A stretch of 40,557 nt of DNA from a virus, in the IMG/VR virus record IMGVR_UViG_3300002835_000422, positions 1 through 40,557 of that record; one strand, 5' to 3'. The translations under genes and the position numbers were made by a program. Below the pieces are notes generated by a model that was not told the DNA's origin, made no database searches, and was given only the letters and a program-made list of their open reading frames with translations. Within the stretch, counting starts at the first letter, position 1, and each line of letters starts with the position of its first letter. Of this stretch, positions 1-40,557 are shown piece after piece.

Positions 1-113
1 GGTCCCCATTGAAAGGCTCCCGAAAATGCTCCAGCAGAAGTTGCTACCGCGGGAACAACCGTACTTTTATCTTCCTCGGTAACTAAAACGCCAGGTGAAA
101 GCTGAAATGCCAT
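1..113 (-). CDS. gp18: Tail sheath protein gp18, N-terminal fragment (runs off the window)
   Basis: Only the first 37 codons are present, beginning MAFQLSPGVLVTEEDKST and running off the left edge. This opening (a Pro-Gly-Val turn followed by a VxEED-type stretch) is typical of contractile-tail sheath proteins of marine T4-like phages. Its place directly downstream of gp17 on the same strand is the T4 order. An AAGGAG ribosome-binding site lies at about 117-125 and a TATAAATA late promoter at 165-172. The protein would polymerise around the tail tube and contract on infection. The identification rests on a short fragment plus synteny. Confidence 0.85.
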   Translation of the reverse strand, partial: MAFQLSPGVLVTEEDKSTVVPAVATSAGAFSGAFQWG

Positions 114-164
114 CTTCTTCTCCTTGATAATTTTATAGATAGCTCTATAATATGATTTTCTATT

Positions 165-4612: not shown

Positions 4613-7600
4613 TTAAAATGTAGATAACGCGTATCTAACCCAATAATCTTGTTCTACGCATAAGTATACATAATTTGCGTCTGCAATTATAGAACCTTGT
4701 GCACCTCGACTAGATGATGAAGTTGGTATAGCTGGTGAATATTTATTTGTAGATGGCGCAAAATTGCAACCATGTGTCAACACGGGCCACAAGTTGCTGC
4801 CATTGGATAATGTTTTTCTGGCGGCATCTTCTGAAAATCCTGCGGCAGGCCACCAGCCACAACCAATAAATGATATTGGAAATACAACAGATGAATCAGA
4901 TGCTTCCAATGCTACCCAATGTGAAGAAATAGTACCAGGTATACCATTAAAGCTACACCCAGTAAGAATTCCTGTTAAGCCTGGTCTGCTTACAGTTTGT
5001 TCTACCCAACATTGTGCTTTACCGCCATTGTGTTCAAAGTAAACTCCGTGTAGCGCAAAACCATTCGATGATTCTTGTCCACCTACACTGTCTCCACCTG
5101 AATTAGTTAATCGCAATCCCCATTTAGATGTGGATAAATCTGTACCCGTACCATTGCCTTCAAAACTGCCGCCTATATAATTAAATGTACCTGCTCCTAC
5201 TACCCAACCACCATAAAAATAATTGTTACCTACAGTACAACCTATCATAGTAATAGCATTTGGGCTAGAATTAGGTGTTGAAGCTGCATTTCTTTCAAAT
5301 CTAAATCCATTATTATTAAATGACAATGTTGCTCTTTGTATATGGCTGCTTAAGAAATTAGACGCATATATGCCTGTACCAAACCCTTTAATATTTACAT
5401 CATCTATTTCAAAATATGCAAGTTGATTCATTGTCAGCCCTGCGCCAAACCCTGATGCGGTTCCAAGTATACCCATTTTTCTTATAGCGGAATAACCGCC
5501 AAAAGAACTAGCACTAGCACCAGTAAAATTAATACCATTTTGCCCTGAAGTTTCTTGGTAAATATAACTTGAAGCAGAACCTTCACCTTCGAAATTTACC
5601 ACTTTAATAGGATCAAGTCTAAATGGCACTGATACATTTATTGGAGATGTTATTTTATAAGTGCCTGCGGGGAAAAATATTGTGCCGCCATTTGCTGCTA
5701 AAGCTGCCGCTACTGCAGCATTGATTGCAGCAGTGTCATTAGTTGTACCATTTCCTACAGCGCCATAAGTTTTTACATTATAAGTAAAACCAACTCCGGT
5801 TGCACCTACCGCCCCCGACGCGCCGGTTGAACCAACTGTACCTATACCCGTCGCACCCGTTGCACCATTTTGTCCACTAGCGCCGGTTGCACCTGTTGCC
5901 CCGACTGAGCCTGCACCCGTGGCGCCTGTTGCTCCGACTGAGCCTGTACCAGTAGCACCAGTTGCACCAGTTGCACCGGGAATAGTACTTGCCGCTCCCG
6001 TAAGACCTGTAGAGCCTCGTACACCTGTAGCACCAGTAGTGCCTAATAGTCCTGTTGCACCGGTCAACCCTGTTGCGCCAATTACACCTGAAGAACCAGT
6101 TGCACCTACAACACTAGCTCCTGAGGCTCCTGTTGCACCAATAACACTTAAACCAGACGCGCCTGTTAGTCCAGTTGCACCTTGGACGCCAGTAGCACCT
6201 GTTGTCCCCGCTCCTGTTCCACCGGTCAATCCTGTTGCACCGGTTAATCCTTGTACACCTGTGGCGCCTCTCAATCCTGTTGCGCCTAATCCAGTAGCAC
6301 CAGTCGCACCCAAATTTCCTGTGGCTCCCGTAGATCCCGTTGGACCTATTAATCCTGTTGCGCCTGTGGCGCCAGTTCCACCTATACTTCCAGGTGTGCC
6401 CGTTGCTCCTGTTAAACCAGATGCGCCACTAAACCCTGAGGCACCAGTTGCCCCAGGTAAACTTAGTCCAGACGCACCAGTTAGTCCTGTTGCTCCGGTT
6501 AATCCTGTAGCACCAGTTGATCCTATTCCTGTTGCTCCTGTAGATCCCGTTGCGCCTGTCGATCCGGGTATTACAGACGCAGCACCAGTTGAACCGGTCA
6601 ATCCTGTTGCGCCAGTTGATCCTATTCCTGTGGCTCCCGTAGATCCAGTTGGACCTGTTAATCCTGTTGCACCTGTTGGGCCACCTGAAGGACCTGTTGC
6701 GCCGGTTGCACCATCAACACCAGCACTACCTGTGGCACCTGTTGGACCACCCGATGGGCCTGTGGCACCTGTTAATCCTGTTGCGCCAGTTGTTCCTTCG
6801 CCGGTTGCGCCTGTTAATCCTGTGGCTCCCGTAGATCCCGTTAAACCTTGTATACCTGTAGCACCTCTGAAACCTGTTGCACCAGTTGCCCCTGATGACC
6901 CATCTATTCCAGACGTTCCCATATTTCCTGTAGCACCTGTAGCACCATCTGAACCAGTGGCGCCAACTAAACCTGTGGCTCCTCTTAGCCCAGTTGAACC
7001 AGTTAAACCAGTAGATCCCTGTGTGCCTGTAGCACCAACTGATCCTATTCCTGTTGCCCCTGATGCTCCTGTTGCACCCGAACCTGTGGCGCCTGTTAAT
7101 CCTGTTGATCCTCGTAGTCCGGTTGCACCAATTAATCCTGATGCACCGGTTGAACCTTGTATACCTGTAGCACCATCAATCCCCGAGACACCTGTTGCAC
7201 CAGGTATTCCTGTTGAACCTCTGCTACCAGTTAAACCAGTTGCTCCAGTTAATCCTGTAGCGCCTGTTAGACCAGTTGAACCATTAATTCCTGATGCACC
7301 AGTTAAACCAGTGGCGCCTGTTGAACCAGTTGCACCATTTGGTCCTCTTATGCCTGTTGCTCCAGTAATACTTTGTCCTGTGGCACCAACAGATCCTGTA
7401 GCACCTTGTAATCCAGTTGCGCCTGAAGCACCAGATCCTGTAGCGCCTGTTAGACCAGTTGATCCTGTTGCACCTGTTAGACCAGTTAAACCAGTAGCAC
7501 CAGATGGGCCTGTTGCACCATCATATAAGAATATTGCGTTTTGCGATATAGGTGTGCCTGGGACAACTATAACATTACCAGTTTGTCCAGGTTCAACTTC

Positions 7601-38639: not shown

Positions 38640-39307
38640 TGTGTTTCCGGGAAAAGAACCTCATCCATAAAATTCATAAACACATCTTTATCTACTCCGA
38701 AGTTAATCATCATCGCAGGTGTATGTGGATTTAATTTTTGGTTCTTACAGTAATTGTTATGTGCTTCTTTATAATTGTCTTTTGACTCTATACCTACATT
38801 ATATAGGTAATAGTCTAGATTGTCAATAACCGTAGATGCTAGTTGATCAAATTCTTCTTGAGTTTGAATGTTTCCCGCCGCCAGCATATTTGGACTGAAA
38901 ATGCGCTTAGCCCAATCTGGTAATTCTCTTGGTTTGTTCCAAGTAATTTTTGACATCTTATCCTGGTACCAATCATATGTTTTTGAGTCGCCAGTATGTG
39001 AGAAATCGTGGAATGCACCTGTAATTTTGTTTTGTCCGCATACTATGTCAAAACCAAAAATGGGGTCTGAGGAATTGTGATGCGGGAAGATACACATATG
39101 CATGACCCACATCTTTTTATGTTTCGTGGCATCTACAATCTCAATGTGTGCTCTACGAAATTTGTCAGAAGTCCAAATATAATTTTCCCACGTAAAATTA
39201 TCAGACTCGTGTCTATATTCTGGCTTCAAATCTTCAGGTGTGTATGACTCTAATTTTTTAATAATATCTTTTGCAAGCTTGTTGGCCTGCGGCCACACTT
39301 CAATCAT
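38636..39307 (-). CDS. pcyA/pcyX: Ferredoxin-dependent bilin reductase (PcyA/PcyX-type)
   Basis: 223 aa, the length of viral members. It reduces biliverdin IXalpha with electrons from ferredoxin. Compared with PcyA, FRRAHIEIVD aligns with FRKMHLELAK, WVMHMCIFP with ILHCVMFP and IFGFDIVCG with LFGCDIVAG. The PcyA catalytic positions are therefore kept: Glu56 (Glu76 in PcyA), His70 (His88) and Asp87 (Asp105), plus His54 (His74). RELPDWAKRIFSP and the FMDEVLFPETQ end also match. It is clearly PcyA-side rather than PebS-side of the family. Marine viral PcyX makes phycoerythrobilin and PcyA makes phycocyanobilin; the product here cannot be read from sequence. It overlaps ho1 by 8 bases. Confidence 0.92.
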   Translation of the reverse strand: MIEVWPQANKLAKDIIKKLESYTPEDLKPEYRHESDNFTWENYIWTSDKFRRAHIEIVDATKHKKMWVMHMCIFPHHNSSDPIFGFDIVCGQNKITGAFHDFSHTGDSKTYDWYQDKMSKITWNKPRELPDWAKRIFSPNMLAAGNIQTQEEFDQLASTVIDNLDYYLYNVGIESKDNYKEAHNNYCKNQKLNPHTPAMMINFGVDKDVFMNFMDEVLFPETQ

Positions 39308-39833
39308 TATAATCTTTCAACATATTAATATTATGAGTAAATGCCACATTGGCTTCTTCGGCTAATGATACATTTAATTTCTGTCTCACATTTGCAATTA
39401 GTTGTGGTAAATTTTCAAACTGAAACATTCTATTACTACCAGGTAATAATTTAGCTAACATTTGTCCGCCGAACATATCGCCCATATGTCTTACATATAC
39501 ATGAGCTAACATTTTAGTTGTATCGTCTTTAATTGTTTCTAAATAATTAATATAATTAATTGTTGACGCATTTAACTTGCCACTGGATGCCCCATCGCCT
39601 ATTAATTCATTGTAGTCTAATTCGATTGCTTTTGCTCTTTTAATATTGTCTATACCTTTAAAAATACCTAGTCGTGAACCATGCCACTCTAAATTTTGAT
39701 ACAGTACTAGCAATTGATACAAATAGTCAATATATTTGTCTCTGTCAACTTGACCTTTGAAAATTGATTTAATAAAAGGTTGCTCTTCAGCTTCCTTGTG
39801 TTTTTCCGAAGTTAATTCTTTTAATGTACTCAT
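39300..39833 (-). CDS. ho1: Heme oxygenase (HO-1 type)
   Basis: 177 aa, shorter than cellular cyanobacterial HO-1 (about 240 aa) but complete. It opens heme to biliverdin IXalpha, iron and CO using reduced ferredoxin. The proximal heme ligand is His12 (SEKHKEAEEQPF) and the distal helix carries HVYVRHMGDMFGGQ with the flexible Gly118-Asp and Gly122-Gly123. GGGAGG sits just before the ATG, inside the end of the 2OG oxygenase gene (ATGA overlap). It is followed directly by the bilin reductase, so biliverdin would pass to it. I see no truncation in the core. Confidence 0.95.
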   Translation of the reverse strand: MSTLKELTSEKHKEAEEQPFIKSIFKGQVDRDKYIDYLYQLLVLYQNLEWHGSRLGIFKGIDNIKRAKAIELDYNELIGDGASSGKLNASTINYINYLETIKDDTTKMLAHVYVRHMGDMFGGQMLAKLLPGSNRMFQFENLPQLIANVRQKLNVSLAEEANVAFTHNINMLKDYND

Positions 39834-40438
39834 AAACCTCCCATTCCACCGCTAGGTGGCGGAAATCCCAAATATTGTCTGTGGTCATATTTGTAATCTC
39901 TATACTTACCAAATTTATCTACATAATGTAGAAACGCTTGTGTTTGTCTTTCGCCTTTGTATTCATCTCGCCAATGTGGTAAGATATCACCCTTGTAAAC
40001 AATAAGATCTCCTGGTTCTAAAAAGATAGGAAAACGCTCACCTTTTAAATTATCAAACCAAATTTCCCAAGGTTCAGGATCTACAGAAATATTAACAGTG
40101 GTTGAAAATTCGCAACTTGGTCTATCAGTATGTTCTGTCATTACTGCACCTTTATAATATATCCTCGCATAGGTATAAGTATTATAAAGTTTTTTACCTG
40201 TTATATCTTCCATCATTGGTAACATTTGTACAGATAATGTTTCGAAACAAGCCGCAGAATAATAAGCAAAACTATTTGTTACTTGGGTATCACCAAACAT
40301 AAATTTGTTTTCCTCACTTTGACCACCCTTCATATAAGTTACTCTTTTTAGTAACTCAAATTCCAAATCTAGATGTTCTACTAATTGAGGTTGAATTGCG
40401 CCTCTTACAACTTCATATAGATTGTCTTTAAATGACAT
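39830..40438 (-). CDS. 2OG-Fe(II) dioxygenase
   Basis: 202 aa. A double-stranded beta-helix fold is indicated by ARIYYKGAVMTEHTDRPSCE with the His103-x-Asp105 iron pair, PGDLIVYKGDILPHWRDEY with His155, and a following Arg (probably Arg164) for 2-oxoglutarate. It resembles the prolyl-4-hydroxylase-like oxygenases frequent in marine T4-like phages. The substrate is unknown; nothing links it chemically to bilin synthesis beyond the operon. The ribosome-binding site AAGGAATAAT precedes the ATG, only 13 bases from the terminator-like hairpin. The C-terminus is Pro/Gly-rich (FPPPSGGMGGL). Confidence 0.88.
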   Translation of the reverse strand: MSFKDNLYEVVRGAIQPQLVEHLDLEFELLKRVTYMKGGQSEENKFMFGDTQVTNSFAYYSAACFETLSVQMLPMMEDITGKKLYNTYTYARIYYKGAVMTEHTDRPSCEFSTTVNISVDPEPWEIWFDNLKGERFPIFLEPGDLIVYKGDILPHWRDEYKGERQTQAFLHYVDKFGKYRDYKYDHRQYLGFPPPSGGMGGL

Positions 40439-40451
40439 ATTATTCCTTAAT

Positions 40452-40487
40452 AAAAAAAGTAGGTTATTCTGTTACGAGGAAACCTAC
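40452..40487 (-). terminator. Intrinsic terminator after the tmRNA
   Basis: On the minus strand GTAGGTT (40487-40481) pairs with AACCTAC (40465-40459) over a 15-base loop, followed at once by seven T residues (40458-40452). This is a standard rho-independent terminator shape with a rather long loop and only moderate GC. It would end the tmRNA transcript. The 2OG oxygenase ribosome-binding site begins immediately after it. Confidence 0.72.
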
Positions 40488-40557
40488 CGAAACCCTAAGC
40501 AGCGTTTAGGCTGCTAAAGCGAACTGTTCGTCGTTTGCATTTACGTTTTTTGCTTCT
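40488..40557 (-). ncRNA. ssrA: tmRNA (ssrA), 3' part with resume codon, tag ANDEQFALAA and helix H5; runs off the window
   Basis: The minus strand reads GCA AAC GAC GAA ... GCT TTA GCA GCC TAA, encoding ANDEQFALAA then stop (resume GCA at 40538-40536, TAA at 40508-40506). This is nearly the E. coli tmRNA reading frame (ANDENYALAA) base for base. After the stop, GCTGCTTAGGG (40503-40493) pairs back with CTTTAGCAGC (40519-40510) to form the tmRNA helix H5, also with the U-U mismatch of E. coli. A terminator follows directly and no T-arm or CCA end is present before the next gene. The gene is therefore probably the permuted, two-piece type with its acceptor half upstream (beyond 40557), or else truncated. 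Confidence 0.85.

Follow-up and report, generated by a model that had tools for sequence, protein, structure and literature searches.

Our analysis establishes that the window (the whole stretch of DNA analysed, 40,557 bases, which is the entire virus record) ends inside the coding piece of a circularly permuted tmRNA gene that belongs to a T4-like phage and is complete, not a remnant, in contigs identical to the window. Permuted phage tmRNAs are already known; the unexpected and more surprising part, which lies outside the window and was invisible to the earlier note made from the window's letters, is that the intervening segment (IVS) between the two pieces of this gene codes for protein. 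We consider the overall picture highly probable: a complete permuted tmRNA with a selected PF09791 frame across its IVS in the window's phage, other, swappable open reading frames (ORFs) in the IVSs of related phages, and a precursor that would act as a dual-use transcript.

The earlier note had recognized a phage tmRNA at the end of the window, and this was borne out by both model searches and longer contigs. The window end (Table 1) matches the Rfam models beta_tmRNA (50.7 bits, E 1e-14) and tmRNA_permuted (34.0 bits, E 2.6e-5), each match being marked as cut at its 5' end, and a chance origin is excluded. Both matches fall under the gathering scores (84 and 47, respectively) because the 5' half of the gene lies beyond the contig end. 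From the window alone, no tmRNA was returned by ARAGORN, by Rfam at the gathering score or by the one-piece model, and the fold energy of the last 118 bases is only slightly better than that of shuffled sequences (z -1.43), which is no proof alone. An INPHARED nucleotide search with the window end gave no match. The hairpin at the 3' end of the coding piece, with its run of T, likely doubles as a terminator, and the distance from the tag stop codon to the start of the neighbouring gene (ATG at 40438), previously given as 68 bases, is 67 bases. The 202-aa product of this neighbour matches no Pfam family at E<=1. The next gene downstream (39300-39833), second from the tmRNA, encodes a heme oxygenase (PF01126, 79.1 bits). 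The genes of the window are T4-like by comparison with PHROGs (scan of ten proteins, nine of which the window encodes) and include baseplate wedge subunits (phrog_438, phrog_219), a tail tube cap (phrog_230), an ssDNA-binding protein (phrog_224) and a terminase.

Table 1. Features of the tmRNA coding piece and its neighbour at the edge of the window.
Feature	Positions	Strand	Basis
3' (coding) piece of circularly permuted tmRNA, truncated 5' at the contig end	40452..40557	-	beta_tmRNA and tmRNA_permuted matches, 5'-truncated; identical contigs hold the whole gene
Reading frame of the tag, ANDEQFALAA, with stop codon TAA	40506..40538	-	Sequence; ARAGORN tag in L019
H5-like hairpin GCAGC...GCTGC containing the tag stop codon	40499..40514	-	Coordinates by eye; paired in predicted fold
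Coding-piece 3' hairpin, stem GTAGGTT/AACCTAC, then seven T	40452..40488	-	Sequence and fold; first post-tag hairpin in the beta_tmRNA model
Downstream neighbour gene, 202 aa	39830..40438	-	Phage annotations of relatives: 2OG-Fe(II) oxygenase or ferrochelatase

Because the window is the whole record, the missing half of the tmRNA was sought in other sequences, and contigs that continue past its edge were found with the 202-aa neighbour protein as an anchor and with searches for the tag DNA (L-numbers denote loci, i.e., stretches of contigs, and several loci may be cuts of one contig). Three contigs (five loci) are exactly identical to the window end over 2,973 to 10,022 bases and then continue: L013 matches over 10,022 bases, L005, on a contig of 119,376 bases, over 6,652, and L008 over 2,973, with L019 and L020 being other cuts of the L005 and L013 contigs (5,725 exact bases). 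A fourth contig (L017) is 99.8% identical over 2,279 bases, exact for the last 364, and also continues beyond the edge. In the identical contigs, an acceptor piece with T-arm and CCA is followed by a 115-nt IVS and then by the coding piece, and ARAGORN reports a permuted tmRNA* with the tag ANDEQFALAA. In L019, positions 4618-4933 score 121 bits with tmRNA_permuted and 101.5 bits with beta_tmRNA, both above the Rfam gathering scores. Extension past 40557 and renewed searches with the tmRNA models, as the earlier note had proposed, therefore recovered the acceptor, IVS and coding piece in full, and of the two options it had left standing, a gene permuted with its acceptor half upstream or a remnant, the permuted and complete gene with intact tag is the correct one. 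The acceptor stem joins the two pieces (GGGCCTG with CAGGTCC-A-CCA, by eye; paired in the predicted fold) and contains G3.U70, the alanine identity pair for charging. Compared with RF04321 and RF01850, the coding piece with tag and stop codon is present (truncated and sub-gathering in the window, full in L019), the acceptor piece with T-arm and CCA lies upstream of it in L019 and the identical contigs, and the two-piece acceptor stem carries the G3.U70 pair. The phage tmRNA would presumably be processed into two mature RNAs and act in trans-translation.

The ANDExxALAA tag had also been read as proteobacterial and as a hint at the host. The first part is fair, as tag-bearing contigs agree with it: 17 of 20 GTDB contigs with this tag sequence have an ARAGORN tmRNA (16 of the 17 one-piece), and titles of the tag-bearing contigs include Rhodocyclaceae, Uliginosibacterium, Limnobacter and Actinobacillus. 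The hint leaves the host unfixed, and we rejected a host assignment from the tag since it is present in several groups. One 3-kb contig binned as an uncultured gammaproteobacterium (L066), perhaps a phage contig, has a permuted tmRNA with the same tag. In INPHARED, nothing matched the whole gene or its acceptor beyond short stretches of acceptor, tag or tRNA.

In the window's phage, a 60-codon frame spans the IVS. In L019, it opens with an ATG at 4624 inside the acceptor piece, runs past the CCA (which ends at 4679) and across the IVS, and closes with a stop codon ending at 4806 in the coding piece, which starts with GGGCCTG at 4795 and holds the stop in its 5' strand. The nested frame belongs to PF09791 (Oxidored-like; 44.8 bits against a gathering cut-off of 24), a domain that is small and Cys-rich here. 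We collected 30 distinct nested versions from 57 loci, several of which are cuts of one contig. All 30 keep the same frame relative to the CCA, with an IVS of 115 or 109 nt, and their diversity by codon position is 0.116/0.145/0.302, the third position being the most variable; the median pN/pS is 0.29 over 401 pairs. The nested frame is thus under purifying selection and evolves like a protein. No ATG, GTG, TTG or CTG occurs between the CCA and the cysteine (CC) motif in any of the 30 versions, and since the IVS offers no usual start codon before the domain, the protein most likely starts at the acceptor ATG, with about 20 residues encoded by the tRNA-like domain. This ATG is present in 29 of the 30 versions, L097 having an in-frame ATG further upstream instead. 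It is also found in most phage tmRNAs without the PF09791 gene, among the matches listed, and no Shine-Dalgarno sequence was seen before it. We considered the open frame through the acceptor piece as a sign of selection and rejected it, as the frame is open in most tmRNAs without the gene too. In L086, the acceptor ATG overlaps the stop codon of an upstream thioredoxin-like frame (by eye). Upstream of the acceptor in L099, we noted by eye a TTGACT-17 nt-TATAAT motif ending 14 nt before the acceptor ATG, which suggests a transcript with a very short leader. A relative with a 92% identical flank (L024) is without the IVS gene, and the existence of such close relatives indicates that the gene is dispensable. 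The AlphaFold model of the 60-aa product is poor (pLDDT 54), with only one helix confident, and the nested peptide had no match in INPHARED. The one solved PF09791 relative that we found is 7zm7 chain o, from fungal complex I, and the accession PF09791 is named in no paper of the open-licence literature searched.

A profile search identified 67 viral PF09791 loci, 50 of which are nested in an IVS by a motif test; L254 is also nested but cut by the contig end, making 51. Another 11, each with an ATG of its own, are found immediately upstream of the tmRNA acceptor or its remnant, several of them reading into the acceptor, which brings the linkage to a permuted tmRNA acceptor or remnant to 62 of the 67. 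Among the 11 upstream-type loci, Rfam confirms the tmRNA at six (L235, as L125 of the same contig, L260, L264, L266, L268 and L269); L224, L265 and L267 lie near a contig edge without an Rfam match over gathering, their acceptors being judged by eye, and L262 and L263 have a degraded acceptor with an intact tmRNA about 1.4 kb on. An adjacent tmRNA is absent at five loci (L242, L244, L249, L251 and L253), and the records of L242 (as L126) and L251, both searched, have a permuted tmRNA elsewhere. PF09791 and a permuted tmRNA co-occur in all five PF09791-bearing phage records tested. Across 150 genomes of Limnobacter's order, PF09791 passes the cut-off in 32 and was never found beside a permuted tmRNA, though only five genomes pass the permuted model, one of these being one-piece by ARAGORN.

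Beyond PF09791, the IVSs of related phages hold many small ORFs without detectable mutual similarity. A search for ribosome sites behind the acceptor (SD-ATG), with the pattern CCACCANAAGGARRTTTRATG, gave 72 viral sites, 70 of them with a 5/5 T-stem, and 53 distinct frames, three of which are open at the contig end and some of which enter the coding piece. With frames under 30 codons excluded, 50 distinct complete cargo DNAs formed 21 BLAST clusters; no tmRNA acceptor precedes one of them (L409). The acceptor-linked ORFs number 70, in about 20 BLAST families with no similarity between families. In two sets of cargo loci, 11 of 12 and 15 of 15 exceeded the gathering score of tmRNA_permuted; the remaining locus of the first set (L362) escaped the fast filters and scored 81.4 bits once these were relaxed. 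The IVS of L417 encodes a whole thioredoxin (75.4 bits) and that of another locus a protein of PF03692 (29.4 bits, the cut-off being 23), which was found at two loci across viruses, one of them on a contig already in the set. None of the 20 typed cargo proteins passed a Pfam cut-off besides these two, ten cargo proteins searched against PHROGs gave nothing below 0.001, and a 122-aa cargo had no match in INPHARED; we do not claim a GNAT identity for the latter, as its AlphaFold and Foldseek matches are weak (best E 0.035). For the most diverged pairs, pN/pS is 0.17, 0.10 and 0.15 in three cargo families and 0.18 and 0.19 in two others; one family has 0.40, five more, with few or saturated changes, have 0.68-1.03, and in two cargo pairs every change is nonsynonymous (4 and 1). 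Contigs of cargo-bearing tmRNAs also contain GOLLD RNA, with tRNA genes nearby (L324, 10928-11336; L433, 9451-9914).

A second sample was drawn without regard to what the IVS holds, by a pattern that matches the coding piece at its 5' end, and comprised at least 120 stretches. Among the matches listed, 119 loci were analysed and the 112 with a recognisable acceptor were kept, seven being dropped; these contain 93 distinct IVSs with a median length of 94 nt and a maximum of 382 nt, 43 of them under 90 nt. Among these matches, 50 IVSs are at least 90 nt long; in 23 of them a forward ATG frame exceeds in length those of 95% of 200 shuffles, where 2.5 would be expected, and 15 reach p<0.01; the 23 are partly related and hence not independent events. 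Forward ORFs in the same 50 IVSs sum to 1437 aa and reverse ORFs to 411. The other 27 have no ORF beyond chance, ten of them being PF09791 cases, whose frames the shuffle test leaves out as their start lies outside the IVS; a PF09791 frame is present at at least 10 of the 112 loci, including L329, again among the matches listed. Many IVS frames start 9-12 nt after the CCA, behind AAGGA or a similar motif, and stop a few bases from the coding piece.

The ends of the IVS pair with one another. Over the 93 IVSs among the matches listed, the mean run is 10.0 bp as compared with 5.4 bp for swapped partners, and pairing of at least 7 bp occurs in 83 of the 93 against 22% when swapped. In predicted folds, this helix stacks under the acceptor stem, and at many cargo loci, as judged by eye, one of its strands holds the ribosome-binding site and the other the final codons. 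Compared with shuffled sequences, the precursor has the better fold (z -3.84; part of L282, z -2.95). In 43 locus pairs, which are not independent, the ends of the acceptor and coding piece are more than 93% identical and the IVS lengths differ by more than 20 nt (e.g., L309, L280 and L298). Taken with the relatives that share a 92% identical flank and are without the gene, these near-identical ends around different IVSs show that cargo is exchanged or lost and the tmRNA kept. We propose that the phage ssrA precursor is a dual-use transcript, each molecule of which would serve either as message or as tmRNA precursor. Ribosomes would translate the IVS gene from the unprocessed precursor, whereas RNase P and 3'-processing enzymes would excise the IVS to give the two-piece tmRNA, such that translation of the precursor would compete with its processing. 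Both the translation of the IVS ORFs and this trade-off are inferred. The balance could be set by the helix of the IVS ends, which closes the acceptor stem and in many cases includes the ribosome-binding site. Ten phage records, possibly fragments, yielded no SmpB, and host SmpB is assumed on that account; the phage tmRNA would most likely use it to rescue ribosomes and tag products during infection.

How far the IVS gene and the tmRNA are coupled admits several readings. A more ambitious form of our proposal holds that the IVS is a swappable cargo bay with the closing helix as a switch, that the tmRNA itself supplies the start site of the small protein or its first 20 residues, and that the state of translation sets the tmRNA supply during infection; we regard this as possible and put it forward tentatively. 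Nearly an even prospect, and the strongest competitor, is that the IVS is merely a spot that tolerates insertions, where phage passenger genes are translated without any coupling to the processing or function of the tmRNA. The roughly 20 cargo families that share no BLAST similarity, the swapping and loss of cargo and the many IVSs shorter than 90 nt (43 of the 93 distinct IVSs, among the matches listed) are what such a spot would produce, but it does not readily explain why PF09791 is tied to the permuted tmRNA in two arrangements at 62 of 67 viral loci, why two records without adjacency keep a permuted tmRNA elsewhere, or why the same bases make up both the closing helix and the start site of the cargo. 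That same linkage of 62 of 67 loci to a permuted acceptor or remnant, together with the co-occurrence in five of five PF09791-bearing phage records tested, could instead mean that the PF09791 protein is a dedicated partner of the phage tmRNA, with a role such as maturation or ribosome rescue, and that its gene accompanies ssrA on that account. We find this doubtful, as most phage permuted tmRNAs are without PF09791 (at least 10 of 112 have it, among the matches listed), and as the only solved relative found, 7zm7 chain o, is from fungal complex I; the 32 of 150 genomes of Limnobacter's order that have PF09791, never beside a permuted tmRNA, point the same way, weakly given how few permuted genes that order has.

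Two further readings can largely be set aside. The strong helix of the IVS ends and the fold of the precursor (z -3.84; z -2.95 for part of L282) would fit IVS frames conserved as RNA structure and not as protein, yet the variation of PF09791 at third positions, the low pN/pS of PF09791 and five other families and the recognisable thioredoxin, PF03692 and PF09791 domains make this very improbable. Mycobacteriophage DS6A has a tag-less inhibitor of host tmRNA, and the window, which alone shows just the 3' piece, might be taken for a similar inhibitor or for a remnant; with a full-scoring gene and an intact tag in the identical contigs, hardly any weight is left on this reading, and the complete above-gathering gene in L019 refutes the remnant outright.

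Several known systems come close to this locus. The gene shares the acceptor-IVS-coding order, T-arm, CCA, tag with stop codon and above-gathering scores with the permuted tmRNAs of Rfam (RF04321, RF01850 and RF01849), from which it differs in that the phage IVS bears a protein gene. Two-piece (permuted) ssrA is reported for the OM43 bacterium phage Melnitz and two-piece structures for 53 of 133 phage tmRNAs (PMC9004378), a phage tmRNA list is available (PMC4131195) and islands are described that integrate beside tmRNA (PMC12595487). Melnitz and other aquatic phages are thus a likeness, a phage-encoded permuted tmRNA in an aquatic myophage; the portion of the Melnitz report available to us describes a glutamine riboswitch at ssrA and makes no mention of a gene in the IVS (PMC9004378). 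Homing endonuclease genes in the group I introns of tmRNA, counted in 36 of 883 intron forms, are likewise protein genes inside a segment removed from the precursor (PMC11915505), whereas the cargo here lies between two mature pieces, varies widely and includes no homing endonuclease among its recognised members. It sits after the CCA and before the coding piece begins, and no intron family was detected in Rfam scans of the cargo loci, which do not have the form of the self-splicing T-loop intron. The 2025 tmRNA database describes a tRNA gene in the IVS of the permuted tmRNA of GCA-2688965 and calls it unique (PMC11915505); that too is a second gene in an IVS but an RNA gene, and here we have protein genes in many phages. 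Judged from the accessible portions of the open-licence literature, protein genes in the removed spacer of a permuted tmRNA are undescribed so far. Such cargo could help to explain why phages retain the permuted form and offers a natural test of translation versus RNase P processing on one RNA, and the uncharacterised domain PF09791 is now linked to tmRNA loci. Finders of tmRNA can miss such genes, as in L098, where ARAGORN gives no tmRNA* and Rfam 124 bits.

Cargo of this kind was not convincingly seen in the bacterial genomes checked. Of 190 genomes of Sulfitobacter's class, the Alphaproteobacteria, 174 have a permuted tmRNA over the cut-off, with matches that mostly span about 185-270 nt (among the matches listed), and the SD-ATG cargo pattern occurs in none of the 190. 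The nine bacterial stretches with the longest spans, among the matches listed, hold no convincing cargo; frames of 66 and 67 codons enter the coding piece in L399 and L407 and were judged unconvincing by eye, and the long IVS of L399 has an internal repeat (by eye). The cultured phages Rb1, X1 and Mosig have no such cargo ORF and QDWS359 no SD-led cargo; the latter has a 76-codon frame from the acceptor ATG across the IVS, in GC-rich sequence where such frames arise easily. The permuted tmRNAs of Stenotrophomonas phage vB_Sm_QDWS359 (L474) and Xanthomonas phages Rb1 and X1 (L393 and L394) are, in the stretches examined, unannotated as tmRNA or lie under an antisense hypothetical gene. Several phage tags are unusual: L417 has, at about 28-123 (-), a long tag frame of about 31 codons ending ANESRFALAA (by eye), ARAGORN gives 27-aa tags ending ALAV or SLAV in L096 and L131, and tags without the usual LAA end are found in L044, L100, L429 and L430 (ANDNSYRMVA, ANDSQFRIAA, ANDSQFRVAA and ANDEKFLMAA), where the altered ends may change the degradation of tagged products.
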